A DNA stretch of 64,000 bases from Escallonia rubra (taxonomy: Eukaryota; Streptophyta; Magnoliopsida; Escalloniales; Escalloniaceae): NCBI GenBank assembly GCA_033065855.1, contig JAVXUO010001660.1, positions 124,001-188,000 of the forward strand, in the 5' to 3' direction. A program made the translations under genes and the position numbers. This document shows positions 24,433 to 58,699 of this stretch, in pieces. Positions within the stretch are counted from its first letter, which is position 1, and each line of letters starts with the position of its first letter. The notes beneath the pieces are model-generated. The model was not told where the DNA came from. It made no database searches and worked only from the letters and a program-made list of their open reading frames with translations.

Positions 24433-24507
24433 AAAAAGGGCAATATATATTTATTGATCTAATTATTCATTTTTCAAGCACTAACTTATATTTTGAGTGT
24501 TTGGCAG

Positions 24508-25822
24508 GAACGAAATCACTATCATAAGATTAAAATTCACGCTCATGGTTCGAAAGAAAGAAGTGATGACATATAAAGATGCATTGCTATCATGTAGCAC
24601 TGTAACCACTAGCCCAAAGATCACCAAGCCTACGGGCTCATACCCCTTGGGACAAAGGTCAAGGCCACAAGTTCCCAAAGGGTCAGCCCCTGTGGAACAA
24701 AGGTTAAGGCCACAAGTTCCTAGGGGTCTCCTATCTTTGGAACTAGGGTCATCATGGCCACGAGTTCCTAGGGGTATCCCATCTTTGGAACTAGGGTCAA
24801 GGCCACGAGTTCCTAGGGGTATCCCATCTATGGAACAAGGTTCAAGGCCACAAGTTCCTGGGAGCATCCCATCTATGGAAGAAAGGTAAAGACCACAAGT
24901 CCCTGAGCGGTCAGCCCCTATGGAACAAAATTTAAGGTCACAGGTTCCTAGGGGTCTCCCATCTTTGGAACTAGGGTCAAGGCCACAAGTTCCTAGGGGT
25001 ATCCCATCTATGGAACAAGGTTCAAGGCCACAAGTTTAGAGGGGCATGCCATACACGACACAAAAGTTGAGGCCACGAGTTCTTAGAGGCCACCCGCCTG
25101 CAGAACATAGGCCACCTATGAACTTATACCCATGGGGACACAGGCTACGGCCACAAATCCCTAAGGGGTCAGTCCTCAGGGAACAAAGGCCAAGGCCACA
25201 GGTTTCTAGGGGCTCCTCACTTATGGAACATGGGCTGCGGCCACAGTTTACCCAGGGGGCACCCTTTTTCAGGGGCCCACCGCTTGTGGAAAATAGGCCA
25301 CGACCTCAATTTCCCAAGGGGCATTATCCTGTGAAGCATAGGCTTCAGGGTCCACATCCCATGGCCTATGATGCAAAGGCGCCCGACGCAGCAAAACCAT
25401 TAGAGCATAAGCTAAGGCCACATCCAGTCAGAACCACTGGACCTCGCCAGAATAACCCACGAGGATGTTTCTCATCCGCTCAGGTATGCCGCCAAGTGAT
25501 GACTGGGTTACCAATGGGTGTCCTATCCAGAAAGTACATTGGGTCCGAAAAGAGTCCATTGGAAAATAATCAACATGGACGGGAATCGGTTAAAATTCAA
25601 GTAAATCAACCAAGAAATGTTGGTGAAATTAAAGTCCTCTATAGGGCCAAGACTCTGGAAGCCAATGACGAACCTAACATGCATGTGCCATCAAGAAACT
25701 CTAGGCGATACATCTCACCTGGAAATGATGAGTTTGTTTCTACAATGGTGGTAGGGTCAAAACCAGTGGGGCATAAGGACGGATCCACTGTTGTTACTGC
25801 AATTTCTGAATGCATTGGATGA
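24508..25822 (+). pseudogene. Unrecognised gene remnant encoding 15-residue proline/arginine repeats
   Basis: A single frame carries about fourteen tandem copies of a 15-residue unit of the form RPQVPRGIPSMEQGS (45 bp at the DNA level), from about 24650 to 25350. A non-repeat C-terminal part follows and ends ...VVTAISECIG at 25822. TTTGGCAG just before 24508 is a good intron acceptor, so this may be the last exon of a spliced gene. The first ATG in frame is 24545. Two in-frame stops (24887-24889 and about 25035-25037) fall inside repeat units where sister units have sense codons, so it is probably dead unless splicing removes them. No family is recognised. The last 40 or so bases of coding sequence also survive, inverted, at about 52500-52540 beside the intact DUF247 gene. 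Confidence 0.5.
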
Positions 25823-26026
25823 CGTATATCATGGTTTACTATTCCTTCTTTAAATTCCTTACATGTAAGTACCATTTTGTTCTTGGAAAGACAAATTAAC
25901 CTCCTCACTTGTAAGCTTTTGTTATATGTGGAGAAACAAATTAAATTAAGTTACATCATCAATAAGTACATAAATAAACAGAGTACTAATTACACGATAA
26001 TAAATGGAGATAAGATATGCAATGAG

Positions 26027-26456
26027 TAGGGCTGTAAATGAACCGAGCCGTTCACGAACGGCTCGTGGTTCGTTCTCCATAAAACTCGTTCATGTTCATT
26101 CTTATAATATATGAATCGAACATGAACAAGTTTTTAGAACTCGTTTATTAAACGAGCCGAACATGAACACTCTAAAATGTTCACAAACGTGTTCGCGAAC
26201 AGCTCGTCTAAATAATAAATTAATTATAATATTTTTACAAAATTAATATTTACATAAAATCATAAATCACATAAAATAAAAATTAAAGTTGGATGCCAGG
26301 CCTTTTAAGTCAGTCGAAACTTAGCCCACTTATAACAGCCCAATCCTAGATAAAAGCCCAACACTTGAAAAAACCCTAACTATATAAACTAACCTAAACC
26401 TAAACATAACAAATCAATTAACTCACACAGCCGCATTCTCTCTGTCCCCTGCCTCG

Positions 26457-26492
<36 letters not shown>

Positions 26493-27155
26493 GCAGATCG
26501 TACATAGCCCCCACCCCCCATCTCTCTCTCTCTCTTCACAAACGGACATCGCGTCGCCTGTCTTCGCCGAAATCAACTTGCGTCGCCGGAGTGCAAGATT
26601 CAACCTGCATCAACTTGCGTCGTCGGAGCGCAAGATGCAACCTGCAAAGTTGCAGATCCTTAACTCCAAGTTTCCGATCTGCAAAGCCATAGCCTACAAA
26701 CGTCGCCTGAGCACAAGATTGAACCTGCAAAGTTGCAGATCCGCAACTCCAAGTTTTTTATCTGCAAAGCCATAGCCTGCAAAGCCAAGGGCCCAACCTC
26801 GAATGCATCAACTCGCTGTCTCTGTCTTGATCGCCAATCGATCGAATTTATTTTTCAGTGTTTTGATTCTGCGTAGCTCCTTCTATCTTCTATGTATCGT
26901 TTTTAATAAATTATACCTTGATTGCTTGAATGATTTGAGAAGTTTGAGTAAATTTAGGGATTTGTTGGAAGTTGATCTTGAACACGAGCCGAGTTTCCGA
27001 ACTCGAGTTCGACTCGTATTGTTAAGCGAGTTGTACGAGTCGAGCTCGAGTTTTACAGTCACGAACTCGAGCGGAGTTCGAACATACCAAAAATTAAACG
27101 AACCGAGTTCGAACACACCCATGTTCGGCTCGAACTCGGTTCGTATACAGCCCTA
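26027..27155. mobile_element. Non-autonomous hAT transposon, 1129 bp
   Basis: The inverted ends are TAGGGCTGTA and TACAGCCCTA, extending with GAACCGAG and CTCGGTTC. They are flanked by a perfect 8-base target duplication GCAATGAG (26019-26026 and 27156-27163). Eight-base duplications and ends of this type are hAT hallmarks. The interior has no transposase. It has subterminal TTCGAACTCGAG-like words, a (CA)n run at 26459-26490 and a 90-base internal duplication around 26630-26790. The other arm has a single GCAATGAC at the equivalent site. Confidence 0.93.
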
Positions 27156-28819
27156 GCAATGAGGAATAATCGAGCTCCAAAACCTTATTAAATCAGAACT
27201 CCAAAGTTACCAATTACTCTAAAATCAAAACCGTTAAAAATGGGTCCAATGTATAATATGATAAAGTTTTAAAGCGGTTCAATAATTTCAAAGGTGGGTG
27301 GAAATTTCATGATTACGTTAATAAGAAAGGATGGACCTACGCTGGTATCGGTGGGTTCACGTTTCCGCTGAACATTTGTGAACTTCTTCAAATAATAAAA
27401 CTCCGTACTTGCTTAACCTTAAGTATTATTTGTATCTAACTCAAAGAATTCTATTATCGGAGGAATCACTGGGTACACATGCCGCCACTCATTCTAATAG
27501 TAATATATAGAGTTGTACACATTAATTAGTACTGACTTTATTCATTATTTATACTCCGTCTTACACGTCACATAATACTTATTTAACGTAGAAATGGTTG
27601 ATAGCAGAAAGTATTAATGCCTACCCTTTCGTTATTATTGATGATAACTTTTAATCTGTAATGGCCATAAAGTCATAAAACGATCCAAAACTATGGTATC
27701 TCTTTACTTTTCAATGCAATTCTCTTATTATCAACAAAAAAAACATAAAAATAGTTGTCATGGAAGAAAGATTTTAACAATGTGAGAACATTTAGATTGG
27801 CTTGCACTAGCATGTTTATCTTTGTATCTAACTTCTACGATTTCGTATTGAGTGGCTTAAATTGGTATCCTAAGAAAAGTTAAAAGCTAAGATGTTTTAA
27901 ATTCTTATATCTGACGTTCACATGTTGCTCCAAGTCAATTTCACATCTCTTGACACAGTTTGTAAAAACTCTTGGCCACTCGAAGGTGATCAATACCAAC
28001 CACGTCCGAACTAACGCCAAAGCGCATTTAATTTCTACCAACATAATTTATTGCTACTAAGGTACGATAAAATACAGCAATACAAGAGTTCCAAAGCAGG
28101 TATTGTGCTTTCGAACTGTTTGGTAAAAGTCATTCTTACATGACAATAATGCTAGTTTTATTTCATTCTTTACTTTGATTAAGGCTTGAAATTTTATGAG
28201 ATTATTTTTGGTTCAGTATTCAGTATTCAGCTGACTTCTTTTGCCCATGCTACTGTCACATTAACCTCTTCTAAACCGACAATCCTAAATAATTGGGACT
28301 AACAATTTCAAATGATAAAATATTTTTTCTTTGGTGACACGTTGGTAGATTGGCTATTTAGGTACGGCTAAAATAACGGTATTATTGAGGAACACGTGAT
28401 ACATCAGTTTGATGATGACTTGATCACCCACCTTGGCCGTTGGCCTGCTTTATTAAAGAAAAAAATACAAGGTCAGTAGGATTTTTTACCGAGCCTAATA
28501 CTCATTTTTAATATTTAGGGGATATAGACACTGTTAAATTCTTTCTTTTTATATTTTTCTCTTCCTTATGTTAATTTGTTAAGAAACCATAGACCAACAG
28601 TTCATCTCTAGAATTCTTGAGAGAAAGGATAACAAACACAAAAACGGATGAAGATGATCTTACATAAGTATAAAATATTGGGTTGTCCGTGATTAATGCT
28701 ATCGATCACTCAGAATTGTTGCATCTTTTGTACAATAACACCTTATACAAGTGTCGACAAGCATATGAGTTCAAAAATAGGCGCTCAAATAAATCTAATG
28801 TAAGTAAAATATTTACTCC

Positions 28820-29602
28820 CAACACTCAAGCCATTCCTAATGATCAGATCCAAGATAAACTTATATGGAATATGTAGGCAGATGGAAGATTCACCATCCA
28901 ATCTGCTTGGGAAATTTTCAGAACCAAGGTAGATACTGTCAAGTGGTGGAAATTGGTGTGGTTTAAAGGCCATATTCCTAAATGCTCTATACTACTATGG
29001 ATGATATGCAAAGGGGGCATCAGAACAAAAGCAAAGCTCAGATAATGGAATCTTATTCAGGATGATTGTTGTATCATATGCCAGAGAAAGAAAGAAACAA
29101 TTGATCATTTGTTTGTCCAATGTGAATATACACAGAAGCTATGGAACCTAGTGGTTACTAAAATCAACTGGAGGTTACCTCTTATTTCATGGGATCATTT
29201 TTTGATCTATCTCATCAATAACCTAAGGGGGAAAAGCTTTCAAATTAGAGTATGCAAATTAGCAATAACTGTGACTGTGTATGGACTATGGATGGAGAGA
29301 AATGCCAGAACGTTTGAAGGTAATTATGCTCATCCTGAAGGTTGTATGAAAATGATTGATCAGTGGATGAAGTATAGACTAAGCAGCTGGAATAGAATCA
29401 AGCCAACAATGAAAAACAAGGAGCTATGCAAGACTTGGGGGGTGCCTAATGGAGTATTCAGTGACTGAGCTCATGTGGCAGTTAACTGTTTTTATTTTTT
29501 GTAAAGGATGTATAGATAGTTAAAAAATGTATTACAAACTCTTGTAATTGTTTTGAGCTTTAATGAAATACAGGACATTTGACAACAAAAAAAAAAAACA
29601 AT
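28820..29602 (+). mobile_element. 5'-truncated L1-type LINE
   Basis: It is flanked by the target duplication TTTACTCC (28812-28819 and 29603-29610) and ends in an A-rich tail. The coding remnant at 28880-29466 matches the reverse-transcriptase zinc-binding domain found at the C-terminus of plant LINE ORF2 (FTIQSAWEIF, WFKGHIPKCSILLWM, C..C..ETIDHLFVQC). One in-frame stop lies near 29044. No RNase H domain follows. The inverted partner at about 43916 is uninterrupted, giving an empty-site comparison. Confidence 0.9.
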
Positions 29603-29610
29603 TTTACTCC

Positions 29611-31260
29611 ATCTATGATATGGTGGATAAAAAAGGAGTCAAGTTCAACTATTTTTGTGTTGAAAATTTTTCAACAAATCTTTTTTCACGATGTTCTTAT
29701 GTTGTGAGTGTTTAAACACTTAAGCAGTCTAAATTCTACCCTAGTAATTACCAAATATTAGGTTTTATTCTAACTTTTATGCTCCTAAAGTCACTCTCTT
29801 AGTTAGCAATGTTAGTTAAAGTGACTCTCTATTAGTTATATGAAAAGCAAAGTTAGCTATCTTCAAAACATAATTACATATAAAATCTTGGAAGATATTA
29901 GGTATATTATGATTAAGTTAGTATTCAACTTAGATCCAAGATTGTACCATATTGAAAATAAATCTAATTTAATAAGCATTTAAAAAAATTTGTTCAATGT
30001 TGTTCTACAATTTGCTTACTACGAGGCTTAGAGATATCATATTTAGTCATATTGGTTAAACTGTTTAAAGCTTATAAAATTGTCTATCGTAATAATGTAT
30101 TGATCTTACTATTTTCTCTGTATTTTTTATTGGTGGATTCAATATACTTCTAAAACCGTTACGCATCATTGTTTAATTAATTTTGTTGATTAATTTTTAT
30201 AAACCACATGAGATAAAGAAAAATATTGACCCAAAATTTTCTCTATCAAAATTAAACTAGCATGTAATTAACATTACGCGAATGCCAATAAAATGTACAA
30301 ACATCTTTTAAAAGATCCTTACACAAGCACAATAAAATTATCTCGTGCAATGATAAATTGTTCTCAATTTTGTCTATGTAATGTACTAAATAAATTTATA
30401 ATATTTGTTCGTGTTTATGGTTACCAAATCAAGATTAACTAAATGCACAACGATATTGCATATTGCTATTTCACCACAAGTGTTAAACCCCGCATATTTA
30501 AGTACCTACATAAAAATAAAATAAAATTAGAGAGTTTTGGGGACGTAATGATTATTTTGAAATTCTGATTTTTATAGGAATATAATATATTTTTAGGTAT
30601 ATTCTTAAAAAGACAAGAAATTCAATAGAGCCTTTAAAGCAGACATTTTGAGATTTTGATCGTCACTTTAAGTTAAGAGCATATTTTTTATTTTGGGATT
30701 TAAGTTCATTGTAAGAATCACATGAATTATTGCCATTGATAGAATCCAATTGAAATTTTGGATATTATGATATTAAGTATTCTGGTATAATTTGATTTGA
30801 GAGGATATGATCAAGACTTTGTATTAAATCGCGAAATCAAAGGTAAGAATTTACTGTTATTGAAATCTGAATCAGCGTTGGACCGATCAATCGTAGTTAT
30901 GCCCCTTTTGATAAATTCTAAATGGATTCATTTTTGTTGTTAACACCAAGCGGCAGTGGAGTATCTTACCCTATGTTTTCATGTCCAGATCGATGAAGCA
31001 GGATCTTATTTTTGTTGAATTTGCTATCACTATTTTTAGTTGATCAGTGGTCCACGGCTTCTACCTTGAATTGTCGCCCGTTGTTTGTCGTGTTAATTAG
31101 TTTGACTTATTTTTTGTCCTGTTAATTGGTTTGACTGCACTGGCATTCTTTGTCCTGTTAATTGGTTTGATGAATGCAGTCTCATTATCTCGAATTTATT
31201 TCGTTGTCCTTCTTCAAAAACTATGACATCGTGTCTTTGACATCATCGTACCGTTGTTCA
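29611..31260. other. Left-arm intergenic DNA
   Basis: AT-rich DNA paired with 41115-43916 in inverted orientation. No gene is seen. GTCCTGTTAATTGGTTTGA recurs two to three times near 31090-31170. Confidence 0.6.
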
Positions 31261-31261
31261 T

Positions 31262-31690
31262 TGACAACGGGTTCGTTTGAAAAATTTTTTTTTTTGGTTT
31301 TCAGTTTTTAAAGAGTAGTTTAAATTTTTTTTTTACAAAAACAAGTGGGTGTTTGATAACCCTTTTTTTTTTAGTTTTTTATTTTTGTGTTTAGTAACCT
31401 TTTTTATTTTGACTTTTTTTTGGGTGGTTTGTAGTGGCGGTGGTGGGGCATAGCGGTGGTCGCCGACGGTTGTCGCCGGCAGTGGCTGCCGGGTGGGTGG
31501 GTGCGTTGTGGTGGAGGTCTCAAAAAATAAATTTAAGTGAAAAAAAAGAGCTTTTTCCTTTTTTTTTTTTTATTTTACAATTTAAAAAGTGGTTTTTTAA
31601 ATTGAAAAAAAAAATTGTTACCAAACGACTTTTTTTTTTCAATTTTCAAAACTGAAAAAAAATAGCGTCAAACATGGCCTTAGAGTCTTT
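31262..31690. mobile_element. T-rich insertion, possible MITE
   Basis: The inverted partner near 41115 runs straight through this point, so about 430 bases were gained here or lost there. The insert begins GGGTTCGTTTG and ends CAAACATGGCC, a loose inverted pair. Near the ends lie GTTTGATAACC and GGTTACCAAAC-like words. The middle has a short GC-rich patch. The class is not clear. Confidence 0.45.
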
Positions 31691-31804
31691 TCTTTCTCAA
31701 AAAAACAAAACTTAAAAGTCTTTCGGCCATTCAAATGCCAAGAACATGCGTGGCACATCCTTGGGGGTCCGCCAATTGATTATTATTGGTATTATTATTA
31801 TTTA

Positions 31805-32105
31805 CGGATATTCTGACTTGTGTTTGCAAAATTCCGATTACAGGAACTCGAAGTTTTGCCCTTTTAAATTCAGTGATATATTGTATGTATCTGTTTCTTT
31901 CACTAAAAATTAGTCCGTAATTTTGTTGTATTGCAACGTCTGCTCTTTTCCATTTGTTTCATGTCTCTTTAAATTAGTCAAAATCTCACTAAAAATGAAT
32001 TATAAATCGCGATCTTATTTTATGAACCTTGTCTCGTTTGTCAATGATGACATGTGTAACTTTATTTTGAATGACTTTCTAGTGTCTGTCTATGTATGAA
32101 AATAT
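31805..32105 (+). repeat. Gypsy-2 type LTR fragment, left arm
   Basis: Matches the reverse complement of 40340-40790 and the plus strand of 12140-12300. It stops abruptly at about 32105, where the Lhcb4-like sequence begins. Confidence 0.7.
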
Positions 32106-32106
32106 A

Positions 32107-32470
32107 CTTGAAGCGGGCTTGGACCCGGCCGGAGGTGGAATACACCTCCGGGAGGCGGGTTCCGATGAATGAGGACATTGCCGCGGTGGCTGCCATGGCA
32201 GGGGTGGCTAGTTTGGGCTGAGGTGTGTGGAGGATATGGGAGTGGAAGTTTGTGAAGTGTGTTGTGATTTTCTGGGTTGGGGGGTTATATTTTTGGTGGA
32301 ATGGATGGATGACTAGGTTGCTGGAGGTGGCAAGGATTATCTGAGGTGGGGGATTGTGGCCGTTGGATGGAGGGAGTGAATCCATCTGAGGGATGTGGGA
32401 GTCTAGGCCTTATCTTTTGCCTTATCTGGTTCAGGTTATGTGACATTGGATGATGATTTGTGGTTGACAT
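32107..32470 (-). pseudogene. Lhcb4: Captured 5' end of an Lhcb4 (CP29)-like gene with its promoter region
   Basis: From an ATG at 32196, the minus strand encodes MAATAAMSSFIGTRLPEV followed by STSGRVQARF, then departs into unrelated sequence at 32107. This matches, from memory, the transit-peptide start of CP29, the minor light-harvesting antenna protein of photosystem II, where ARF is followed by GFGKK. Upstream on the minus strand is a C/A-rich leader and two GATAAG words (32409-32414 and 32421-32426), the I-box core common in photosynthesis gene promoters. Only about 30 codons are present, so it makes no antenna protein. The other arm has LTR sequence here instead, so the piece arrived after the duplication or replaced LTR sequence. 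Confidence 0.58.
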
Positions 32471-33840
32471 GAAATGAAGAACATAGATACTTATACCTCT
32501 GTAGGACCATCTTTATCCCATTGTTTTTAAGCACTGGACCAACATCTATGTCCACTAGAATTCTCAATTTACAATTTTAGGATTCAGGTTGTTTAAACAA
32601 ATTGTACCGTATGAGTAAGTAAGGGTTTTGACACAAACTGCGGGGAGCGACGTAATTGGTTACGGTAATCGGTAGTTACAGTTTTTGAAAGGTTTATTTC
32701 TCGAGTTTGTTTCTATAAGTCTGAAATTAGAAACGTTTCGACACATTATTCACTGTTTCAATCTTGTTTTAGTTCATTTCGAAGATTCTGCATAAGAATT
32801 TAAAAGGAAAATTGTTCCTAAAGTTTTGTTTCTGTAGCGCTGAATACATCCGCTTTCAGCCGATGGATGTGCCCAAACTGATACACAGTAACCTAAGGAC
32901 GAGAAAAACTGGAGGAGTGACATAATATCATACACCATCTCTTTTCATCTCTGTCTTTTTTTTTATTTAATAAAAGACTCTAGAAATCACAATGGGACCT
33001 TAGCAGGAGACAGGGAGGGAGCTTTATTGACCTAATTCCAAGTTTTTAATTTTTGGTCTGCCTAATGCGGATTACACTCTGTACACCTTAGGTGAGGATT
33101 TTCCAGTTGGGGATGGCTGGCAAAAGTGTATTGGCTGTCAATACTTGATAATCCTTCTCACCTAAAAATCTCTCCGACATATGAAAATTAAAAGCTTCAT
33201 TTACATAACCAGGTCACTTTTCTTGTAAAGAGAGACCATCATTACCAATAAACTTATTCAAGCCTTTATGCAATCTGATATCAAGTTTACTCCATATATG
33301 TCACTGCAATGTGATACTTCATCCATTCTCAAATTTAAATCCTTTTAAAGAATTAGCTTAATTTAAAACAAAGTTTGTAATACACAAAAATTGAATTAGA
33401 TTCGTAGTAACAACAAAGGTCAAAATGGGAGTTGAATTAATGGGGATTAGGAGAAAAAGTTTAGCCTGCATGTCTCTTATGTACAGTAGGCTCTTCTCAA
33501 CAGTCAGCACTGATCAATTTGTCTCGTAAGGAAATGCTATTGAGTACTGTTACCATGGATCATTGTTCTGTTCACATCTTCATTTTTGCTTAGATAGGGG
33601 ATGTATGCAGCGTAAGAATATAGAGCAAAGAGGAGAAACTGGTGGAAATGCTCAATTGGCTTATGCCATTCGAAATTGTAGAGGCAACTCAGTCCTGTTC
33701 GCATAGAAAGACTCCGAACGTTGTGGCTAACATCTCACATGGCTCAAGATCTTTAGACAATACTTTCAGGTGTTTGTGCAGTAGAACAACTGCTTTACAT
33801 TTTCCACTGCGAAAAGTGATCCTATAAAAGGAAACGTCTC
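32471..33840. other. Intergenic DNA
   Basis: No gene was recognised. An inverted pair (TTAGGTGAGGATT near 33089 and AATCCTTCTCACCTAA near 33150) could form a hairpin. Part of 32471-32600 may be further promoter sequence of the captured gene, but I cannot show it. Confidence 0.4.
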
Positions 33841-34851
33841 GGCCATTTCGATAGTTTTCTGTCACACATTATGTATGGTTTTAGCCTATACAAGACAACA
33901 TTTGAGGAAGTGGAAATGAATTATTATTCTATACTTTTTTGTGTTTTTATATTTTTAAGTCTGGAACCTTGGCCCCTGCTGGGCACCCTGCAACCGACTG
34001 GTATAATCAACAATACAACCATGAGTAAAACATCAGTCACTGGGCTGCAGAAGTTTAGATTCTCTAAACAGTCCTATAAATGTGGGACTTAGAGCTTTAT
34101 AGCAGATCAAAATGTGGATTCGCACTTTTGATTTAATAGCTGAGGGCTTGAGGCTGATCAAGAAAGACAAGAACTACTTATGGGTGCAAACCAGTTATGA
34201 AGACTTCAACAGTAGTTTATTACTTATTCAAATTTGGTCAAAGCACATTTATTCAAATCGATCTTACAAAAGCTACAGACTGGTAGGGAACCAAGCACAG
34301 TCATCGTCCACATTACTTCATACACTTGAACCAAGCACAGCATAGCTGAGGATCTATGACTACGTGGAAGAACGGACGCCGTAGAAGGTTTGTACCACTG
34401 TAAGAGCAAAAAGGGTCAAGGCAGCAACGACCGATATGGCTGACCATGGATTACCAAAATAATTACGCCTTAGCAATGCTAATCTTCTAGGCCAGCGGCG
34501 CTTGCAGTAGTAATCTACCTGCTTCCATTGGCTGAAGAAGAAGAAATTTCCCAGAGCAACTTCTTTGCAAAGATTGTTGAAGAGATCGGCAGCATCTTCA
34601 CTGGAACCCAGATTGTTCTCTATAACTCTGGCATTTTCAAGCAAATGAACGTCATCGGAAGAGACAATGAGAATATCCATGAGGTGGGCATAAGACGTGA
34701 TATGCCGCTGCTCAATATCAGGACCACATTGCTCGAAAGCAATGAGGTTCTTTAAGAAGGACTCCGTGGTGTAAAAAATTCCCAATTTCGGGATCTCGAA
34801 GCGACTTCTACCAAATAGTTGACAAAACCAAGAGAAGCAACAGCATAGACG

Positions 34852-38039: not shown

Positions 38040-38197
38040 ATTCTTTGTTGTTTTAACGATGTATATCATGCTTTGACGCTAATCATGTAAGCTCATCACG
38101 TGTAAGTGTTCTAATACTCGTGGAAAAACAAATTAAATTAAGTTGCACCACCATCAAGCGCACAAACTCTCGTGTAAGCTCCTCACGTGTAAGCCTT
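38040..38197. repeat. Upstream flank of DUF247-A shared with the 25.8 kb region
   Basis: GTATATCATG and GAAAAACAAATTAAATTAAGTT-type words occur here in the same order as at 25826-25960. This ties the sequence upstream of copy A to the sequence after the repeat-protein gene. Confidence 0.6.
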
Positions 38198-38815: not shown

Positions 38816-38837
38816 CAAACCAGTCAACACTTTTACT

Positions 38838-39845: not shown

Positions 39846-39847
39846 GT

Positions 39848-40790
39848 TGTAACGCTTCGAATTTTTGGAGCGTTACTTTCAATTAAATAAAGTAAAAAAA
39901 CCTCATATTTTTAAAAAGTCTCTCGAACTGGTTAAAGTCAGACCATCCAAATAATTATGTCTCCAAGTTCATAATTAAATGCCAAATAGGTCTAAAACGG
40001 TAATTTAGTCCACAATTTACTCCTAAACGAAGTTTCAAATTAAACATCTAAATCCAACTAAGTCCTCATACTATAATTTAAAAAAAAAATACAAACTAAC
40101 TCTGAAATTATAACTGCTAGCTCTCAGTCATACAGCTAGCCCCGTTATCCAGTCCCAATCCCCTTTATTGGTCACCTGAAAGGGAAAACAATAAGGGAAT
40201 TAACCGAATACCCAGTAAGGTCGCTCAACTAATTAGTCAAAAGGAATACAAAAATGTCTGAGAAAATCGAAATTACGAATATACAAAACTTTAGCGGGAC
40301 ATATACGAGATAAAATTTCAAATGCCGAAATATATTTTTATATAGAGACACTAGAGAGCCATTCAAAATAAGATCCACATGCCATTACTGACACACGAGA
40401 CAAGATTCAAAAAATAAGATCGCGATCTATAACTCATCCCCACTGAGCTAGCCCACATTCCAATTCACGTAGGTAAATCAGAAGCTGAAAAGTCGCATAC
40501 TGTGACATGGCTCATAAAATTACACAACGATAATCCACCAAAAAAAATATGCCACACGCCAACAAGATTATACAAAGTCACGTGATGAAATAATTGTGTT
40601 TGAATAACATGGTACAATCAATTTTTAGATAGATTTTAACTAATTTAGAGAGACATGAAACAAATGAAAAAGGACAGTCATTGCAATACAACAAAATTAC
40701 GGAATAGTTTTTAGTAAAAGAAAAGGATAAATACAGTATATCACTGAAGGGCAAAACTTCAAGCTCCTGTAATCGGAATTTTGCAAACAC
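39848..40790 (-). repeat. Gypsy-2 LTR, partial
   Basis: The minus-strand end is AAGCGTTACA at 39848. The segment near 40150-40230 shares words with the Gypsy-1 LTR (GAGCGACCTTACTGGG, TTCCCTTATTGTTT, CTTTCAGGTGA), showing a related family. The outer part, 40340-40790, is the partner of 12136-12535 and 31805-32105. No coding region is attached. Confidence 0.7.
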
Positions 40791-43700
40791 AAGTCATATC
40801 ATATCATATACCAATAATAATCAGCCAGAGGGCCCCCAAGGGTATGCCACGCCTATTCTTGACAATTGTATGATGCTGTCAAAGACATGATGCCATAGTT
40901 TTTAAGGAAAGAAACTTAGTCAAAAACATCCCTATTCACCCTTAATCTTTTATGAAAAAATTAATAAAAAAAGGATAATTTAAGGGAAAAAAGATTAGTC
41001 ATTTAAGACCATACGTATTATATATATATATAATAATCAGTTGGCGGGCCCCAAGGGTGTGCCACGGCTGTTCTTGGCACTAGAATGGCTGAAAGACTCT
41101 TAAGTCAATGAACAACTGTACGATGTCAATGAACAATTGTATGATGATGTCAAAGACATGATGTCATAGTTTTTTTAAGAAAGACAACCAAATAAATTCC
41201 AGATAATGAGATATGACTGCATTCATCGAACCAATTAACATGAGAAACAAAGCCAATGTAGTCAAACCAATTCACACGACAAACAATGGCAACTATTTTT
41301 ATTTCGCCTAATTAAACCTATATCCTTGAGATTAAAGTATAATTACAGTCAAGAACTTTAAATTTTAAAATATAACATATTGTGACTAATAATGTTAATT
41401 ATGTAACATTTATGTCCACTTGTTAGGGTTCTGTCCAAAAAGTATATTTTTTTATGATGTCATCATTACGTATTTTTAAAATGACAATAATGCCTTTATA
41501 CTGTATATATCGAATAATTTAAATATTTTAAATTAATATTTCAACAATTAGGGTTTATTAGAGTCCTAATTTTCAAATTAGGGTTTCAAAACCCTAATTT
41601 CAAATTATGGTTTCAAAAATTAGGGTTCCAAAACCCTAATTTCAAATTAGGTTCCAAAACCCTAATTTTCGAACAAAAAAAAGTACTTCAACTGTCCCAA
41701 ATATCTTCAAAGGCGGCTGCATAAAAAAGGCAACTGTTATGTTTTTTATTCTGGACCACGAGGGTAGGGTTTTAGCTTTTCTTCAAGACATTCCATCGAG
41801 GCCGTGTTCCATAAGTCAGTCACAGCAAGCAAGATTGTGAAGGTGTTCCGGGAATAGGAAGCTGAGGGAAGAAAGGCCAAGGAAGATTAAAACTATTTGA
41901 CAGTGGAAGGGGGAGGAAGACGGGTTACGGCGTAGGGGAAAGGGGAGGCAGACTGAGAAGGGGAAACCAAATGGGGTGCGGTGCCGGGGAAGAGGGAAGT
42001 AGATGGGTGCCGGCGCAGAGAAAGATGGAGGCAGACGGGGTGGGTGGGTGACAAGGAGGGGGGATGGTAGGGGGCGATGAAGGGGTGTGACAGTTGGGGG
42101 GGGGGGGAGAGTTTGAGAGACATAAATGGGGTTGGGGTATTTTCTTAAAACTGTTAGGTTTTTTAAGATTCCGTCTGGTTAATAGACATAAGTGTAATTT
42201 GTCCAAACTATTGTCCTTATCTGTAATTATACCATAACCTCACGGACATAAGTGTAATAAGTCCTTTGTATTTTATTCCTCCGACCAGAACATGGCCATA
42301 TGAGTGTGTACCACCATTATCTGTAGAAAGATCTCGGGTGTGAATCTACTGGTTGATCTATCTATCCGTATATAAAGATAGAGGTATGATCCAGCATGCC
42401 CCTTTAAAAAAAAAAAAAAAACAAAATTTCATTCTTCCCTGACTTCATGTATGAATAAAGTAATCAAAAGGGTAGTAATAAGTCATATAGAATCAATGGA
42501 TTAAGAAGCCGTGGAACACTGATCAAATAAATATAGTAACAACAAGTTCAAAATTTTTTTTTTGATCATGCTGGATCGTATCCGGAAATGAAAACATAAG
42601 GTAAGATGAGCCACTGCCGCTTGGTGTTAACAACCAAAATGAATATATTAGGATTTATCAAAAGGGCATAACTACGATTGATCGGTTCAACGCTGATTCA
42701 GATTTCAATAACAGTAAATTATTACCTTTGATTTCGCGATTTAATACAAAGTCTTGATCATATCCTCTCAAATCCAATTATACCAGAACCCTTAATATCA
42801 AAATATCCAAAAACTCAATTGAATTCTATCAATGGCAATAATTCATGTGGTTCTTACAATGAACTTAAATCCCAAAATAAAAAATATGCTTTTACCTTAA
42901 AATAACGATCAAAATCTCTAAAGGTCTAAAAATATATTAAATTCCTAAAAAAATAAGAATATCAAAATATCCATTACGTCCCCAAAACTCTCTATTTTTT
43001 TTTTATTTTTTATGTAGGCATTTAAATATGTGGAGTCTAACACTTGTGGTGAAATAGCAATAGGCAATATCGTTGTGCATTTAGCTAATCTTGATTTGGT
43101 AACCATATACACGAACAAATATTATAGATTTATTTAGTACATTACAGAGACAATATTGAGAACAATTTATCATTGCACGAGATATCTTTATTGTGCTTGT
43201 GTAAGGATCTTTTAAAAAATGTCCGTACATTCTAATGGCATGCCCGTAACGTTAACTAAATGTTAGTTTAATTTTGATAGAGAAAAGTTTGGTCTATATT
43301 TTTCTTTATATCGTGTGGTTTATAAATATTAATCAACAAAATTAATTAAACAATGATGCGTAACGGTTTTAGAAGTATATCATAAAAAATACAGAGAAAA
43401 TAGTACGATCAATACGTTATTGCGATTGATAGTTTTATAAGTTTTAAAAAGTTTAACCAACATGACTAAATATGATATCTCTAAGCCTGAAAGTAAGCAA
43501 AATGTAGAACAATATTGAACAATTTTTTTTGTTGATAATAATGCTTATTAAAATTAGATTTATCTTCAATACGGTACAATCTTCGATCTAAGTTGAGTAC
43601 CAACTTAATCATAATATACCTAATATCTTCCTAGATTTTATATGTAATTATGTTTTGAAGATAGCTAACTTTGCTTTTAATATAACTAATAGAGAGTGAC

Positions 43701-45692
43701 TTTAGCTAACTTTGCTAACTAAGAGAATGACTTTAGGAGCATAAACGTTAGAGTAAAATTTAAAATTTGGTAATTACTAGGGTAGAATTTAGACTGCTTA
43801 AGTGTTTAAACACTCACAACATAAGAACATCGTGAAAAAAGATTTGTTTAAAAAATTTCAACACAAAAATAGTTGAACTTGACTCCTTTTTTATCCACCA
43901 TATCATAGATGGAGTACATATTTTTACTTATATTAGACTTATTTAAGCACCTATTTTTGCATGTCATATGCTTGTCGACACTTGTATAAGGTGTTATTGT
44001 ACAAAAGATGCAACAATTCTGAGTGATCGATAGCATTAATCACGGACAACCCAATATTTTATACTTATGTAAGATCATCTTCATCCGTTTTTGTGTTTGC
44101 TATCCTTTCTCTCAAGAATTCTAGAGATGAATTGTTGGTCTATGGTTTCTTAACAAATTAACATAAGGAAGAGAAAAATATAAAAAGAAAGATTTTAACA
44201 GTGTCGATCTATATCCCCTAAATATTAAAAATGTGTATTAGGCTCGGTAAAAAATCCTACTGACCTTGTATTTTTTTTTTTTTTAAAGCAGGCCAACGGC
44301 CAAGGTGGGTGGTCAAGTCATCATCAAACTGATGTATCACGTGTTCCTCAATAATACAGTTATTTTAGCCGTACCTAAATAGCCAATCTACCAACGTGTC
44401 ACCAAAGAAAAAATATTTTATCGTTTGAAATTGTTAGTCCCAGTTATTTAGGATTGTCGGTTTATAAGAGGTTAATGTGACAGTAGAAGTCAGCTAAATA
44501 CTGAACGACATGACCAATGATTGTAGATGTTTGAAACTAATAGTGTCGGGCCACTCAAACTTTTTTTTCTACATGAGAGGAAAAAATAACAAAATAAAAG
44601 ACATTAACTGTTATTATGTGAACCATGATAACAACAGCTATGTCTTTTAAAATTTTTGAATGAGCTAAATTAGCACAAAAAGTGTTTCCGCAAAACCTAT
44701 TTCCATCCATAAACAGAAAAACATTTTCCAAAAATAATCTCATAAAATTTCAAGCCTTAATCAAAGTAAAGAATGAAATAAGACTAGCATTATTGTCATG
44801 TAAGAATGACTTTTACCAAACAGTTCCAAAACACAAAACCCGGGTATTGTGCTTTGGAACTCGTATTGCTGTATTTTATCGTACCTTAGTAGCAATAAAT
44901 TATGTTGGTAGAAATTAAATGCGCTTTGGCGTTGGTTCGGACATGGTGGGTATTGATCACCTTCGAGTGGCAAAGATTTTTTTAAACTGTGTCAAGAGAT
45001 GTGAAATTGACTTGGAGCAACATGTCAACGTCAGATGTAAGAATTTAAAATATCTTAGCTTTAGTTGTTCTTAGGATACAAATTTAATTCACTCAATACA
45101 AAGGTAAACATGCTAGTGCAAGCCAACCTAAATGTTCTCAAATTGTTAAAATCTTTCTTTCATAACAACTATTTCTACGTTAAACAAGTATTATGTGACG
45201 TGTAAGACGTAGTATAAATTATAAATAAAGTCAACACTAATTAATGTGTACATCTCTATATGTTACTATTAGAATGAGTGGCAGCATGTGTACCCACTGA
45301 TTCCTCCGATAATAGAATTCTTTGAGTTAGATACAAATACTGCTTAAGGTCAAGCAAGTACGGAGTATTATTATTTGAGGAAGTTAACAAATGTTCAGCG
45401 AAAACGTGAACCCACCGATACCAGCGTAGGTCCATCCTTTCTTATTGACGTAATCATGGAATTTTCACCCGTCTTTGAAATTATTGACCCGCTTTAAAAC
45501 TTTATCATGTTATACATTATTGGATCTATTTGTAACAATTTTGATTTTAGAGTAATTGATAACTTTGGAGTTCTAGTTTAATAAGGTTTTGGAGCTCGAT
45601 TATTCGTCATTGCATATTTGGTCTCCATTTATTATCGTGTAATTAGTACTCTGTTTATTGGTGTGCTTACCGGTGGTGTAGCAAATGCTTAC
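40340..45692 (-). repeat. Right arm of the inverted duplication (continues at 52391-52540)
   Basis: Reverse-complement partner of the left arm, in the same order. It is interrupted by Copia-2, beyond which 52391-52540 continues the match. It has its own gains: a tandem copy of about 240 bases around 40800-41180 and a 1.2 kb segment at about 41300-42490. Confidence 0.85.
41300..42490. other. 1.2 kb segment private to the right arm
   Basis: The left arm passes from about 31065 to 31080 with no equivalent. The segment includes a cluster of AATTAGGGTTT and AAACCCTAATT words at 41545-41670 (a perfect hairpin at 41575-41600) and a G-rich stretch at 41910-42110. No coding region and no clear element ends were found. 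Confidence 0.5.
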
Positions 45693-46641
45693 TGTTGTTC
45701 GAAATATATACTTTGTGTATACTTGTGCAGAAAACAATTAAGTACGAAATACTGAAATTTAGTTTACTAAACAGAACATATAGTCTTTGCAAGAACAATT
45801 AAAATGAACTCACAACAGGATTGCAGAAAAGCAGAACAGCAAAGGAAAAAGGGGCCGAGGCGTGAATTTGATTCACTGTCCTTAAGACTTATTCGTCCCG
45901 CAACGGTGCTGACGGCTCTCGACGATAGTCTCCCAGGATACAACGGCTACGTCTGAAAATAGTAGCACACCAAATTTCCAGACCCGGCGAACCAAACAAT
46001 GGTAGAACTCTTTCTTCTTTTCGAAACACTAAAAACTGGACAGACTCTTGTACAGAAGAACTTCGGGATTAATTTTAATGCATAACTTCTGTAAACTGAC
46101 TCATTTTTATACACAGAGTATTCACTGGGGGGTGCAACTCTTCACAGCTGGTTGGTTGGAAAGGAAAGGTCACAACTTTTCGGAAAGGAAATTAAATAAA
46201 TAAAATTTATTTGTCCCAAAAAGAATAAAGCCTGATTGGGCCTAGCCCAAGCCACGGCCACGGACCGGACCGGGACGGGGCGGGGCGGGCGGCGCGCGCG
46301 TGTGGTGGACCTTGGGTCAACCTAGGTCCTCCCTCCTTACAAAACATGGGTACCCCCAAGGGGCCCATCCCTTAGCTCAAGGCTAAGCTTTATAAGGAGA
46401 CAACATTGGCTTTATCTCTTCAATGTGGGATATTCTTTTCCTTTCAAGGTGAACCACTAACTTTAGCTTCAATTTTCTCATTCACTTCTCATTCGTTTTA
46501 AACATGTGAATATACCACGATCATCTATTCCAATAGATGAACGTGAATTAATTTGTTCCTAACCAAGCTATGGTTTGGAACCCATTTGAAAATTGAGTCA
46601 AAGTTGCTTCTCCACAATGGGTTTAAAACCCAATTCCAACA
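45693..46641 (-). repeat. 3' LTR of Copia-2
   Basis: 949 bases, near-identical to 51458-52390. It carries a GC-rich tract at 46255-46302 with alternating GC. Confidence 0.95.
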
Positions 46642-47240
46642 ATCCCCCACATGAATAGAAAATTGACTGGACTCTATACGCACAAAAACACTGACATAAG
46701 AAAGAGTTCTTTAGAACGACACTGCATCGGGATAGGTAGCCGATGGCCTTGAACCTTCCCTAGTGAGAACTATCGGATTTACTGGTTAACCAGTGAACAT
46801 GATGTCTTGAACTGTTCAACCCTTAGTGTAAACCGAGACAATAGAACTTCACACAGTATCGCTCAAACATTGTTTTGAGGTTCTCATTGTTGTGTTCATT
46901 TTGGCCCTGAACAACTCCTGGTTTTCATGAGTACTCTTTGAGAATTCAGCCTTACAATTCTCATAGAAGCGGCCCCACTTCTTACTCACATAGGTGACTT
47001 CTTATTAAGAGGTTCCTACCGCACCCCCACTTAGATTTCCAAGATATAAGAGTCATTAAAAGCATAGCTTAACCTAACCTTTTGTAGGTGCCACTGTCTT
47101 CTCATCATAGGAATGGATATGAGGGTTTTAACCCCCCACAGTGCTCTGTCTGAGTCGCATTTACATAATTCGGTTTTTCCTTTGAACCTAGATCTTGGGA
47201 TCTCCAGTCAGCTAGGTAGGGTTTCCATTATGGCAACTCT

Positions 47241-50200
47241 TTAGTTCATAGGCTTAAGACCCATTCCCCTTGATGACACATTTACTTTCTCTCTAGTCAA
47301 AGCTTTCGTTAACGGATCCGCAATATTATCCTTTGACTTCACATAGTCAATAGAGATAATTCCACTAGAAAGTAATTGTCTAACGGTATTGTGTCTGCGA
47401 CGTATGTGTCTAGACTTGCCGTTATACATACTGCTTTGTGCTCTTCCAATTGCAGATTGACTATCACAATGTATGCAAATTGGTGGCACAGGCTTAGGCC
47501 AATTTGGAATATCCTCCAAGAAATTACGAAGCCACTCCGCTTCTTCTCCTGCTTTATCTAAAGCAATGAATTCAGATTCCATAGTGGATCTGGCAATACA
47601 TGTCTGTTTAGAGGATTTCCAAGAAATAGCTGCTCCTCCTAATGTAAACACATATCCACTTGTGGATTTTGTTTCATTAGAATCTGATATCCAGTTGGCA
47701 TCACTGTATCCTTCTAATACAGCTGGATATCTTGTATAATGCAGACCAAAGTTTAAGGTATATTTTAAGTACCTTAAAACTCTTACAATAGCTAGCCAGT
47801 GATTCTTCCCCGGATTGCTAGTATATCTGCTCAGTTTACTGACAGCATATGCTATATCGGGTCTCGTGCAATTCATGATATACATTAGGCTACCAATTAT
47901 ACGCGAATACTCTAATTGAGATATTCCTTCACCAGTATTCTTTGTTAGATGTAAATTTACATCTAGTGGTGTCTTAACTGGACTATTATCATAACTTTTA
48001 AATTTGTCTAGCACTTTCTCAATATAATGAGATTGTGACAAGACTAGTCCATTTGATGTTTTGGTAATTTTCATACCAAGTATAACATCAGCCACACCCA
48101 TATCTTTCATATCAAATTTACTGGCCAACATTTTCTTTGTAGCCTTAATGAATTCATCATTGCTCCCGATAATGAGCATATCATCCACATAAAGGCAAAC
48201 AATGACATATCCTTTTTCCGTGCCTTTAACATAGACACATTTATCACATTCGTTGATTCTAAAGCCATTTTCGATCATGACTTTATCAAACTTTTCATGC
48301 CATTGTTTCGGAGCCTGTTTTAGTCCATAAAGTGACTTAACAAGCTTGCACACCTTCCTCTTATGATCAGGAGCTACAAACCCCTCGGGTTGCTCTATAT
48401 AGATCTCTTCATTTAGATCTCCATTTAGGAAAGCTGTTTTCACATCCATTTGGTGTATCTCAAGATTATTAATAGCTGCAATAGCTATCAATATTCGAAT
48501 GGATGTTATTCTTGTAACTGGTGAATATGTATCGAAATAATCAAGGCCTTCCTTTTGTCTATATCCCTTGACAACTAGTCGGGCCTTATATTTCTCGATC
48601 GTTCCATCAGCTTTCATCTTTCTCTTGAAAAGCCATTTACACCCTAATGGTTTATTTCCAGGAGGAAGATCCACCAGTTCCCATGTATGATTTTGCATGA
48701 TGGATTCTATTTCACTATTAATAGCCTCTTTCCAATGAGGAGCTTCGGGACTCGACATTGCTTCACTATAAGTACGAGGCTCATTTTCTAACAAATATGT
48801 TAGAAAATCAGGACCAAAAGATGTAGACGTTCTAGCTCTCTTGCTACGTCTTGGCTCATCTTCCTCTTGTGAGGGTTCTTGGTCCTTATTAGTTCTTTCT
48901 AAAGAACTTCGTTCTTGTGCAACTTTATAAGGAAATACATTTTCAAAGAAATGTGCATTCCTTGTCTCCATTATGATGTTGACATGTATATCGTCAACTT
49001 CAGATTTATGCACTAAGAACCGATATGCCGAGCTATGGCTTGCATATCCAATAAAAATCCCATCGACCGTTTTAGGTCCTATTTTGACCATTTTAGGTGG
49101 TGGGATAGCTACCTTTGCTAGACACCCCCACACTTTAAGATATTTGAAGGAAGGAGGACGACCTTTCCATAGCTCATAAGGTGTCTTTTGCAACTTCTTG
49201 TGAGGTACTTTATTAAGTATATGATTTGCGGTTAAGACCCCCCACGAGTTATCCGGTAGTTCAGAATTTATCAACAAAGCATTCATCATTTCCTTTAAAG
49301 TACGATTTTTTCGTTCAGCAATTCCATTTGACTGAGGCACATATGGTGCCGTGGTCTCATGAATGATTCCGTGATCGGCACAAAATTTTTCAAAAGGGAA
49401 AACATATTCTCCGCCTCTATCACTTCTTAGTACTTTGATTTTCTTGCTAAGTTGATTTTCAACCTCAATTTTGTATTGCATAAATGCTTCCAAGGCTTCA
49501 TCCTTGCTTCTAAGCAAATATACATAACAAAATCTCGTACAATCATCAATAAAAGTAATAAAATACTTTTTTCCTCCTCTAGATTGTACCACCTTTAAGT
49601 CACATATATCACTATGAATTAGACTTAAAGGTTCCGTACTTCTTTCAATTGACTTGAAAGACGTTTTAGCCATTTTAGCTTCAACACAAATTTCACATGC
49701 TTTATGTGAGTCAAAGTCCATTTTAGGCAACAAACCATTTTTCACGAGCTTTTGTAACGAACCATAATTCACATGACCTAATCTATGATGCCATAAATTA
49801 GGAGATTCCAACAAGTAAGCAGAAGAGACATTATTATTATTATCGGAATTTGGTACAACTTTAGGTACGATGGTCATTACATTTAGCTTAAACAGACCAT
49901 CACAAAGGTACCCTTTTCCTACAAACATTCCACTCTTAGTTAGTACAAACTTGTCGGACTCAAAAACTAGCTTAAAACCATTTTTGCTCAACAATGAGCC
50001 CGAAACTAAATTCTTTCGAATGTCCGGCACATAAAGCACATTGTTGAGACTCAACTCCTTGCCGGATGTCATCTTTAAGACCACCTTGCCCATCCCTTGC
50101 ACCTTTGAAGAAGAAGAGTTTCCCATGAACAGATTCTCGTTGTTGGCGCTCTCATACGTAGTAAACATACTTCGCTCGGAGCACACATGTCGAGTAGCGC

Positions 50201-51227
50201 CTGTGTCTACCCACCACTGTTTGGGATTTCCAACCAAGTTGACTTCGGATACCACCGCAGATAGATTCAAATCTGTCACGTCCTCGGTAATCTTGGTAAC
50301 TTCCGTCACATTGGCTTGAGAATGCTTTCCTTTCTTAAAGTTTCCTTTGGTTGTGCGACAGTCCTTAGCACGATGGCCAGCTTTGCCGCACACATAGCAA
50401 TTCCCTTTGAACTTCTTCTTCTCACCGCCTTTGGAATTTGAGCCGCTAGCTCCACTTGGACCGTCTGAATCGGAAATTTTCCTCCTCTTTGACGGACCTT
50501 GCTCGACCACATTTGCCTTGGCCTCATGATGATAATTACCGGCCTTCTTCTCGGACTGGCGATTATCCTCCTCAATCCTCAATCTGACGATCAAATCCTC
50601 GAGCTTCATCTCCTTGCGCTTATGCTTCAAATAGTTCTTGAAATCTCTCCAAGTAGGTGGCAATTTTTCAATTAGCGCAGCCACTTGAAAAGATTCTCCA
50701 AGTACCATCCCTTCCGCATGAATATCATGGAGGATTAGCTGAAACTCTTGGACTTGACTAATCACAGTCTTGGAATCCACCATCTTGAAATCAAGGAATT
50801 TGTCGACTACAAATTTCTTTGAGCCGGCATCTTCCGTTTTGTATTTCCTTTCCAAGGATTCCCACAATGCTTTCGCATTGGCCATTGGACTGTATACGTT
50901 ATACAACGCATTGTCCAATCCATTGAGGATGTAGTTCTTGCACAAAAAATCCGAATGCTTCCAAGCATCCACGGCAGCCACTGTTTGCCGGTCAGGATTG
51001 TCACCAAGATCTGGTGCATCCTCGTGCAAGAACCTTGCCAAGTTCAAGGTGGTAAGATAGAACAACATTTTCTGTTGCCATCTCTTAAAATCCTTTCCGT
51101 TGAACGTTCCTGGTCTTGTACCAAGTCCAACGGAACCATGAGCAGGTGCAACGTAAGGTGTCGCATACACAGTCCCACCGCTGGGATGAACCGGTCCACT
51201 TTCCGAATTGGTTTCGCTAGTAGCCAT
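47241..51227 (-). CDS. Gag-pol polyprotein of Copia-2
   Basis: 1328 residues from the ATG at 51227. I chose this start (MATSETN) over an upstream in-frame ATG because it opens the usual Gag sequence. Domains in order: Gag (about 40-230), CCHC knuckle [14 protein letters not shown] (about 280), aspartic protease [10 protein letters not shown] (about 345), integrase HHCC ([11 protein letters not shown]), integrase core ([18 protein letters not shown]), reverse transcriptase ([22 protein letters not shown]) and RNase H with the terminal [14 protein letters not shown]. It is part of a retroelement and not a host gene. The order is that of Ty1/copia. Confidence 0.95.
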
Positions 51228-51457
51228 TGTTATATCTATCAACAGAATATAACAACTATTAATAAGCAAAAATAATCCAGTCTATCACAAAGGTATAACG
51301 AAAACAGATTCTAGTATCACTAAAATTAAATTCAGAAACTGAAAATAATTTTAGTATAGATTGATATAATCAAATAAGAAAACGAAATTTGAAAAACACT
51401 GTTTAGAAAATACTGTTTCTACACATGTACACAAAGTACGGGATAAAGTCTTAAGAT

Positions 51458-52390
51458 TGTTGTTCGAAATATATACTTTGTGTATACTTGTGCAGAAAAC
51501 AATTAAGTACGAAATACTGAAATTTAGTTTACTAAACAGAACATATAGTCTTTGCAAGAACAATTAAAATGAACTCACAACAGGATTGCAGAAAAGCAGA
51601 ACAGCAAAGGAAAAAGGGGCCGAGGCGTGAATTTGATTCACTGTCCTTAAGACTTATTCGTCCCGCAACGGTGCTGACGGCTCTCGACGATAGTCTCCCA
51701 GGATACAACGGCTACGTCTGAAAATAGTAGCACACCAAATTTCCAGACCCGGCGAACCAAACAATGGTAGAACTCTTTCTTCTTTTCGAAACACTAAAAA
51801 CTGGACATACTCTTGTACAGAAGAACTTCGGGATTAATTTTAATGCATAACTTCTGTAAACTGACTCATTTTTATACACAGAGTATTCACTGGGGGGTGC
51901 AACTCTTCACAGCTGGTTGGTTGGAAAGGAAAGGTCACAACTTTTCGGAAAGGAAATTAAATAAATAAAATTTATTTGTCCCAAAAAGAATAAAGCCTGA
52001 TTGGGCCTAGCCCAAGGACCGGGGCGGGGCGGGGCGGGCGGCGCGCGCGCGTGGTGGACCTTGGGTCAACCTAGGTCCTCCCTCCTTACAAAATATGGGT
52101 ACTCCCACGGGGCCCATCCCTTAGCTCAAGGCTAAGCCTTATAAGGAGTCAACATTGGCTTTATCTCTTCAATGTGGGATATTCTTTTCCTTTCAAGGTG
52201 AACCACTAACTTTAGCTTCAATTTTCTCATTCACTTCTCATTCGTTTTAAACATGTGAATATACCACGATCATCTATTCCAATAGATGAACGTGAATTAA
52301 TTTGTTCCTAACCAAGCTATGGTTTGAAACCTATTTAAAAAGTGAGTCAAAGTTGCTTCTCCACAATGGATTTAAAACCCAATTCCAACA
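51458..52390 (-). repeat. 5' LTR of Copia-2
   Basis: 933 bases. Directly inside it the minus strand reads ATCTTAAGAC, the same as in Copia-1, in place of the usual TGGTATCAGAGC primer site. Confidence 0.95.
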
Positions 52391-52540
52391 CTTAAAAGTG
52401 AATAGTTTAATTTGTCTTTCCAAGAACAACTGTACTTACTAGTGAGGAGTTTAAAGAAGGAATAGTAAACCATGATATACGTAGTCCAATCCATTCAGGA
52501 ATTGCAAGTAACAACAGAAATTACTTTTGGTGGATGGAAA
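52391..52540 (-). repeat. Outer end of the right arm, with remnant of the repeat-protein gene
   Basis: The reverse complement matches 25790-25918, covering the last codons and 3' flank of the 15-residue-repeat gene (GTATATCATGGTTTACTATT is identical in both). It shows that a copy of that gene once lay head to head with DUF247-B. Confidence 0.8.
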
Positions 52541-52595
52541 CAATGGATTAAACGTGCTTCATTTCCATGAACAATTTAAACAAAAAAAAAAGTTT

Positions 52596-52601
52596 TATAT
52601 A
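52596..52601 (+). promoter_or_regulatory. Candidate TATA box of DUF247-B
   Basis: TATATA within GTTTTATATACTAGG lies about 125 bases before the ATG. A CT-rich leader (CTCTCTCTCTCACTCTCC) follows, typical of plant 5' untranslated regions. No experimental support. Confidence 0.35.
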
Positions 52602-58650: not shown

Positions 58651-58699
58651 GTAATGTGGTTAGGGAAAGCACTCTAAATGAGTTCCCTACTTGTTGAAA

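Follow-up and report, generated by a model that had tools for sequence, protein, structure and literature searches.

Background

In valley oak, Quercus lobata, DUF247 genes form a large block in which many complete and partial copies are reported to lie in tandem-like blocks that are often locally rearranged; a link to reproductive recognition or self-recognition has been suggested (PMC9018854). DUF247 genes are also described as the self-incompatibility genes of the S- and Z-loci of grasses (PMC9623065, PMC9825253). Here we describe a DUF247 array in Escallonia rubra, studied from a window of 64,000 nucleotides (positions 124001-188000 of the forward strand of contig JAVXUO010001660.1, called C2035 below; assembly GCA_033065855.1) in which two long arms face each other as mirror images. 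The mirror image is best explained by an inversion inside a direct DUF247 array and not by one inverted duplication, a reading to which we give a probability of roughly 0.8.

Tandem DUF247 blocks are already known from oak, and this array is a further case. It resembles the oak block in holding many complete and partial copies in one block and in its local rearrangement; what differs is that single units, spacer arms, a fusion with an LHCB4 gene and an orientation flip are resolved here. With the grass loci it has the protein family in common, but neither a mating function nor a partner gene nor alleles are in evidence here. Among titles and opening lines of abstracts found for DUF247, DUF247 inversion and LINE (long interspersed nuclear element) breakpoints in plant tandem arrays, none describes this structure. 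The number and function of DUF247 clusters in trees are still unexplained. With six alignable copies, private insertions, the LHCB4 fusion and one readable inversion joint, the growth of such a cluster becomes testable copy by copy. A mirrored repeat of this kind may also be misread as one duplication if only the 64 kb are seen; with the further copies on the contig taken in, the event is a different one, and so is the order of what happened.

The structure was read from the assembled sequence (566 Mb in 3222 contigs). Coordinates without a prefix refer to the window, and those with a contig name to that contig. Membership of the DUF247 family was defined as a PF03140 match above the curated cut-off of 24.8 bits.

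The arms are copies of a repeated DUF247 unit

Self-BLASTN of the window paired a left arm (L; 25788-32109, plus strand) in reverse and in order with a right arm (R), as 45680-40328 and 52517-52391. This pairing had been proposed in an earlier note on this DNA and was confirmed; its pieces are 81-94% identical, and their scores, as high as 1829 bits, go well past anything that chance would give. The first part of R occupies 40328-45692 on the minus strand, and its outer end, together with the upstream stretch of the gene DUF247-B, occupies 52391-52715 on the same strand, with homology to L stopping at 52517.

The earlier note had taken the pair for one large inverted duplication, a description that was not supported once further copies in the genome were compared. 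Each arm is part of a repeated unit consisting of the arm, a DUF247 gene and a downstream segment, D, and this unit is present in at least six copies: L, R, two further copies on C2035 (C1, C2035:57014-61728, and C4, C2035:206428-211562), and one copy each on contigs C2127 (arm from 108204 to about 110700) and C1076 (157353-159584). The arms of C1 and C4 have the orientation of R, opposite to that of L, and each is followed by a DUF247 gene. The units are ordered arm, DUF247, D in C1, R and C4, and DUF247, D, arm in L (read in reverse), C2127 and C1076.

The window holds two DUF247 genes. DUF247-B (52704-54284, plus strand) has an open frame of 526 amino acids and matches PF03140 with 357 bits (E 2.3e-106). 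Its partner DUF247-A (33999-38052, minus strand) is in pieces, 36784-38052 and 34360-34896, for which the scores are 189.9 and 144.3 bits. Segment D follows downstream of DUF247-A (32110-33946, minus strand) and is homologous to D of C4 and of C1076. The mirrored structure had been given an 8 kb centre holding a broken DUF247-A; the gene is indeed split, but the centre is not unique, for 33999-38007 pairs in reverse with 54685-52641, outside R. Over the six pairs of four open DUF247 copies, dN/dS was 0.50-0.89, so that constraint is not strong and no value exceeds 1. On C2127, one close DUF247 gene and two exons at 42 and 59% identity were found among the matches listed.

The arms of C1 and C4 (C2035:57014-60956 and 206428-210567) are 97-98.5% identical over long stretches, and their DUF247 genes differ by about 9-10%. 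This contrast between near-identical arms and diverged genes would be a sign of recent exchange, or of duplication with patches.

A block of about 96 kb lies reversed within the array

Orientation was analysed over C2035:40-230 kb. With cut points picked after looking, the matches fall into three blocks: I below 66.2 kb, II from 66.2 to 162.2 kb, and III above. Same-orientation and opposite-orientation matches numbered 13 and 2 within block I, 89 and 6 within block II, 75 and 2 within block III, and 46 and 5 between I and III; between block II and its flanks the proportions were reversed, with 4 and 63 for I-II and 14 and 164 for II-III. Since these counts include local tandem repeats and the long terminal repeat (LTR) pair of a Copia-2 retrotransposon, a free search for two cuts was run on matches separated by 7 kb or more. 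In steps of 1 kb, the best cuts fell at 66.5 kb (with ties to 69.5) and 162.5 kb, and a continuous block reversed relative to both flanks accounted for 372 of 401 matches. A model with no flip fitted 163/401, and the best single switch 272/401; in 200 sign shuffles, searched on a coarser 4 kb grid, the best value was 245/401. When each pair of 2 kb bins was allowed a single match, 266/293 fitted the flip. Arm matches at C2035:22-25 kb have the orientation of block I in 5/5 cases. The opposite orientation of L is thus common to the whole block of about 96 kb, which is a further departure from the single inverted duplication of the earlier note.

The ends of the block were examined in turn. At the right-hand switch (38193-38806, minus strand), the unit of DUF247-A matches C2127 up to 38193, and the array in the other orientation begins at about 38801. 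Between them, at 38201-38806, lies a LINE-like 3' fragment, truncated at its 5' end and on the minus strand, which has other matches in the genome (39 among 40 scored). It is accompanied by a reverse-transcriptase-like domain, RVT_3 (38421-38852, E 1.7e-8), and by an A-run at the 3' end, seen as a T-run on the plus strand; its 5' end overlaps the start of the array by about 5 bases. A target duplication of this fragment was looked for by eye and none was seen. At the left-hand end, a dispersed repeat of 2.1 kb and an element resembling a MITE (miniature inverted-repeat transposable element) fill C2035:66152-70092. The left end of block II (C2035:70092) and the start of block III (C2035:162801) hold the two halves of a single array copy, cut at points that lie about 3 bp from each other. 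Seven other aligned copies, chosen by the analyst, run across this point; in one there is a gap of 12 bp next to it.

As in inversions inside clustered gene families in general, a block of the array is reversed and repeats lie at the joints; here, however, the joint repeats are mismatched (LINE-like at one, others at the other), and one side is readable as a cut array copy. The junction also resembles LINE insertions at rearrangement joints that lack a target duplication, in its 5' truncation, its short 5' overlap and the lack of a visible target duplication, although cause and consequence are inseparable here.

The left arm shares an LHCB4 fusion with C2127

Next to C4, segment D runs into a gene for the antenna protein LHCB4 (CP29) with two open exons and chlorophyll a/b-binding domains, whose best solved relatives are CP29. 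The full first exon begins at C2035:216443 and was found only beside C4 in the genome (13/13 candidates scored). At the inner end of L, the LHCB4 sequence (32110-32196, minus strand) breaks off after its first 29 codons, reading from 32196 to 32110, and runs directly into the arm. The same joint is found in C2127, though the sequence there has an internal deletion. R is without it; on the inner side, R goes on in the manner of C1 and C4. Because the joint is present in L and C2127 and absent from R, the inner edge of L is an older rearrangement and not a fold-back point. In C1076, D also adjoins the arm; the break comes after 22 bases of LHCB4, and some of the inner arm is missing. That joint may be the L/C2127 fusion with a later deletion, or it may have arisen separately.

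The kinship of the copies was assessed from distances (K) over seven arm blocks, b1-b7, and from eight block trees, each with four to six copies, which were built from two DUF247 pieces, four arm blocks and two D blocks. C2127 is without b1-b3, so that its comparison with L is limited to b4-b7. L and R differ at 296/3601 aligned sites (8.2%, the sum of seven blocks), K ranging from 0.038 in b4 to 0.163 in b7. L and C2127 differ at 0/271 sites in b4, with K of 0.046 in b5, 0.18 in b6 (94 sites) and 0.12 in b7. In all 8 trees L, or its gene DUF247-A, grouped with C2127, with support of 100, 97, 99, 100, 71, 100, 100 and, in b6, 36; two of these are weak. Of the 105 topologies for b4+b5, the best three have L with C2127, and the best of the 15 that unite L and R was rejected by the approximately unbiased (AU) test (p 9.2e-5). 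For b4-b7 with five copies, the AU p of the L+R tree was below 1e-5. By these comparisons, L and R are probably not sister copies.

Other stretches give other partners. In b2 the nearest copy to L is C4 (K 0.038), with 36 agreeing variable sites in a run, and C1 and C4 agree over 134 consecutive variable sites; neither run was reached in 5000 shuffles (0/5000 each). Judged by such runs, the copies are patchworks. At C2127:108469-108735, two consecutive matches cover the same arm sequence of about 96 bp, and identity to L, 98-100% before, drops there to about 90%; this may be a point of exchange.

C2127 may be an allele of the locus or a paralogous segment. At 93-95% identity, three pieces of C2127:1708-9998 follow the order of C2035:100646-106708; against this stand the single full LHCB4 first exon among the candidates scored and the one close DUF247 gene among the matches listed on C2127. 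A match of C2035:44919-48283 on C2127 was considered as a shared flank marking an allele and was dropped, as it is a high-copy repeat (40/40 scored candidates match). Beyond the sister of the DUF247-A unit (C2127:108204-119803), 5/5 matches to block II keep the block II orientation, with no switch. C2127 may for this reason be a candidate for the unflipped state, though possibly on a paralogous segment. A match of C2127:101684-104529 to block III (C2035:200924-203794), in an orientation that does not fit the flip, was set aside as another high-copy repeat (40/40 scored candidates); two short matches that follow it, at C2127:104514-105120, share its orientation. A far-reaching proposal would see more in the flip than neutral debris: in a rapidly evolving recognition locus, an inversion of about 96 kb, associated with a LINE, would restrict how far DUF247 haplotypes recombine, in the manner of plant self-recognition loci, and C2127 would be a diverged haplotype of this locus and not a paralogous segment. 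This is a long shot.

Origin of the mirrored arrangement

The copies, the three-block orientation pattern, the complementary half-copies at the block ends and the LINE-like junction fragment are all directly visible, and from them we infer a two-break genomic inversion. The units would originally have stood in one orientation within a direct array, with LHCB4 following segment D at one copy. L and DUF247-A would then have flipped within the array as part of a block some 96 kb long (C2035:~66-162.5 kb). L and R, formerly tens of kb apart in the same orientation, would thereby have come to face each other across 38193-38806, where a LINE may have been captured during repair. The hAT, LINE, Copia-2 and CACTA insertions described below would each have followed the separation of the copies that they distinguish.

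Several observations weigh against this history. Of the orientation matches, 29/401 do not fit the flip. Reciprocity can be read on the array side only; the left junction (C2035:66152-70092) is filled with repeats and the other ancestral joint is lost. The kinship of L is likewise less uniform than the trees suggest: b6 places it nearer to C1, C4 and R (K 0.12-0.14; L-R 0.14) than to C2127 (0.18 over 94 sites), the 3' DUF247 piece of C2127 is equally near to B and A (0.095 each), and the L+R tree is not rejected for b6+b7 alone (AU p 0.10). The Shimodaira-Hasegawa (SH) test does not reject L and R as sisters (p 0.15 for b4+b5; 0.16 for b4-b7). In b3-b7, sites that split the copies two against two set L+R against C1+C4 in 138/142 cases; this pattern may reflect exchange between C1 and C4 themselves, which are near-identical in much of b3-b7, and kinship of L and R fits it too. 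Finally, the A-B pairing and the pairing of C2035:136.8-143.2 kb with 192.8-205.0 kb lie on one antidiagonal with its centre at 168-171 kb, as an inverted duplication would also give.

Some of these points, together with the ordered reverse pairing of L and R over 6 kb, are what would be expected of a true large inverted duplication, in which fold-back or template switching placed a reversed copy of an array segment next to the original, setting L with DUF247-A against R with DUF247-B at once. A palindrome of this origin should, however, have arms that are each other's closest relatives and a whole unit mirrored about one centre. L groups with C2127 and not with R in the trees, the AU test rejects L+R for b4+b5 and b4-b7, and the inner edge of L is an LHCB4 fusion that R is without. 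DUF247-A lies inside L and DUF247-B outside R, so that the order of the unit is shifted and not mirrored; the centre of the L-R matches is at 160 kb of C2035, and that of the A-B matches at 169 kb. The complementary halves at C2035:70092 and C2035:162801 would also go unexplained. We consider this origin unlikely, and keep it in view because of the shared antidiagonal and because kinship of L and R is not excluded by every test. A misjoined or flipped contig stretch could also produce opposite orientations, and the region is rich in repeats on one contig of 3222. The window and the stretches of C2035 that were read contain no N, and a search with BLASTN found no repeat common to the two block ends. 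L and R, 8.2% apart and with private insertions, are not one sequence read twice, and at the junction the sequences meet in a specific joint that holds a LINE-like fragment; an assembly artefact is accordingly rated very improbable. The inverted arms might also suggest a single transposable element of very large size with an arm at either end, the more so as part of b5 belongs to an old dispersed repeat with copies of about 70% identity on many contigs. The arm copies end differently, however (L at 25788, C2127 at a point corresponding to about 28549), and single arms in direct orientation, each beside a DUF247 gene, occur in C1 and C4. This explanation was rejected as barely credible. An inversion within the direct array remains the preferred reading.

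Transposon insertions and their order

The earlier note used the two arms as empty-site controls for three insertions, a hAT element and a LINE in L and Copia-2 in R. Self-BLASTN and alignments of the sites bore out that the first two are missing from R, and the third from L, at the expected points, and further empty copies were found besides the partner arm: two for the hAT, four for the LINE and two for Copia-2. The absences had been said to fall at target duplications. This is true of all three, but the Copia-2 duplication is imperfect, and the hAT and LINE sites read differently in R.

The non-autonomous hAT (26027-27155, 1129 bp) has ends TAGGGCTGTA...TACAGCCCTA, which form short terminal inverted repeats, and an exact 8 bp target duplication, GCAATGAG, at 26019-26026 and 27156-27163. 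It is absent from R, C1 and C4, where the empty site reads GCAATGAC, ACAATAAG and GCAATGAG, respectively. The LINE (28820-29602, plus strand) is truncated at its 5' end and has a poly-A, a zf-RVT domain (E 3.3e-7) and the target duplication TTTACTCC at 28812-28819 and 29603-29610. It is absent from R, C1, C4, C2127 and C1076, the empty site being TGTACTCC in R and TTTACTCC in C2127. With one flank identical over 271 bp, the LINE in L is judged to be younger than the L-C2127 split at its site. Copia-2 (45693-52390, minus strand) has an RVT_2 domain and a TG...CA pair of LTRs (45693-46641 and 51458-52390), and is absent from L, C1 and C4. It is preceded by CTTAC and followed by CTTAA, a match at 4/5 positions in place of an identical 5 bp target duplication, and R has lost about 28 bp beside the site.

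These three are not, as had been supposed, the only insertions that separate the arms. Two dispersed repeats are private to L: one of about 139 bp (27604-27741; flanks AAATGGTTG / AAATAGTTG), absent from R and C4 and falling in a wider stretch that C1 is without, and one of about 440 bp (31270-31709), for which there is no clear target duplication. An insert of about 1.2 kb (41288-42503) is private to R and absent from L, C1 and C4.

The Copia-2 LTRs differ at 13/933 sites (K 0.014, 1.4%), against 296/3601 (8.2%) between the arms. This agrees with the order in the earlier note, in which the insertions postdate the separation of the arms, though as a means of dating the comparison is weakened by patchwork exchange among the copies. 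The order of events survives on these divergences, with the clock blurred. Divergence may be reset when copies exchange sequence, so that the duplications may be older than the arms indicate, but not younger.

A CACTA element of 1831 bp (34852-36682) splits DUF247-A. It has ends CACTACTAG...CATTG, the right one degenerate, and the 3 bp target duplication ACG at 34849-34851 and 36683-36685; the site is empty in C2127, C1 and C4, and relatives of the element lie on 38 other contigs. A second CACTA of the same family (55763-57194, target duplication AAA) lies between displaced DUF247 fragments at 54973-55240 and 57196-57320. Within this region (54973-57320), the piece at 54973-55240 is nearer to DUF247-A (95.5%) than to DUF247-B (90.9%).

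Other features of the window

At 24119-25822, reaching the outer edge of L, there are tandem DNA repeats, together with open frames whose products contain short repeated peptides; a Pfam search gave no match for the frames 24497-24889 and 25040-25822. Another Copia fragment, with gag and integrase domains, is found at 635-2470. A stretch of 7.2 kb occurs twice in opposite orientation at 95% identity, at C2035:79823-87035 and 182649-189851 (58649-64000 of the window and onward). On the minus strand at 19656-19737, a match to domains of the plastid petD group II intron (Rfam RF04336, RF00029) is likely to mark an insertion of plastid DNA.

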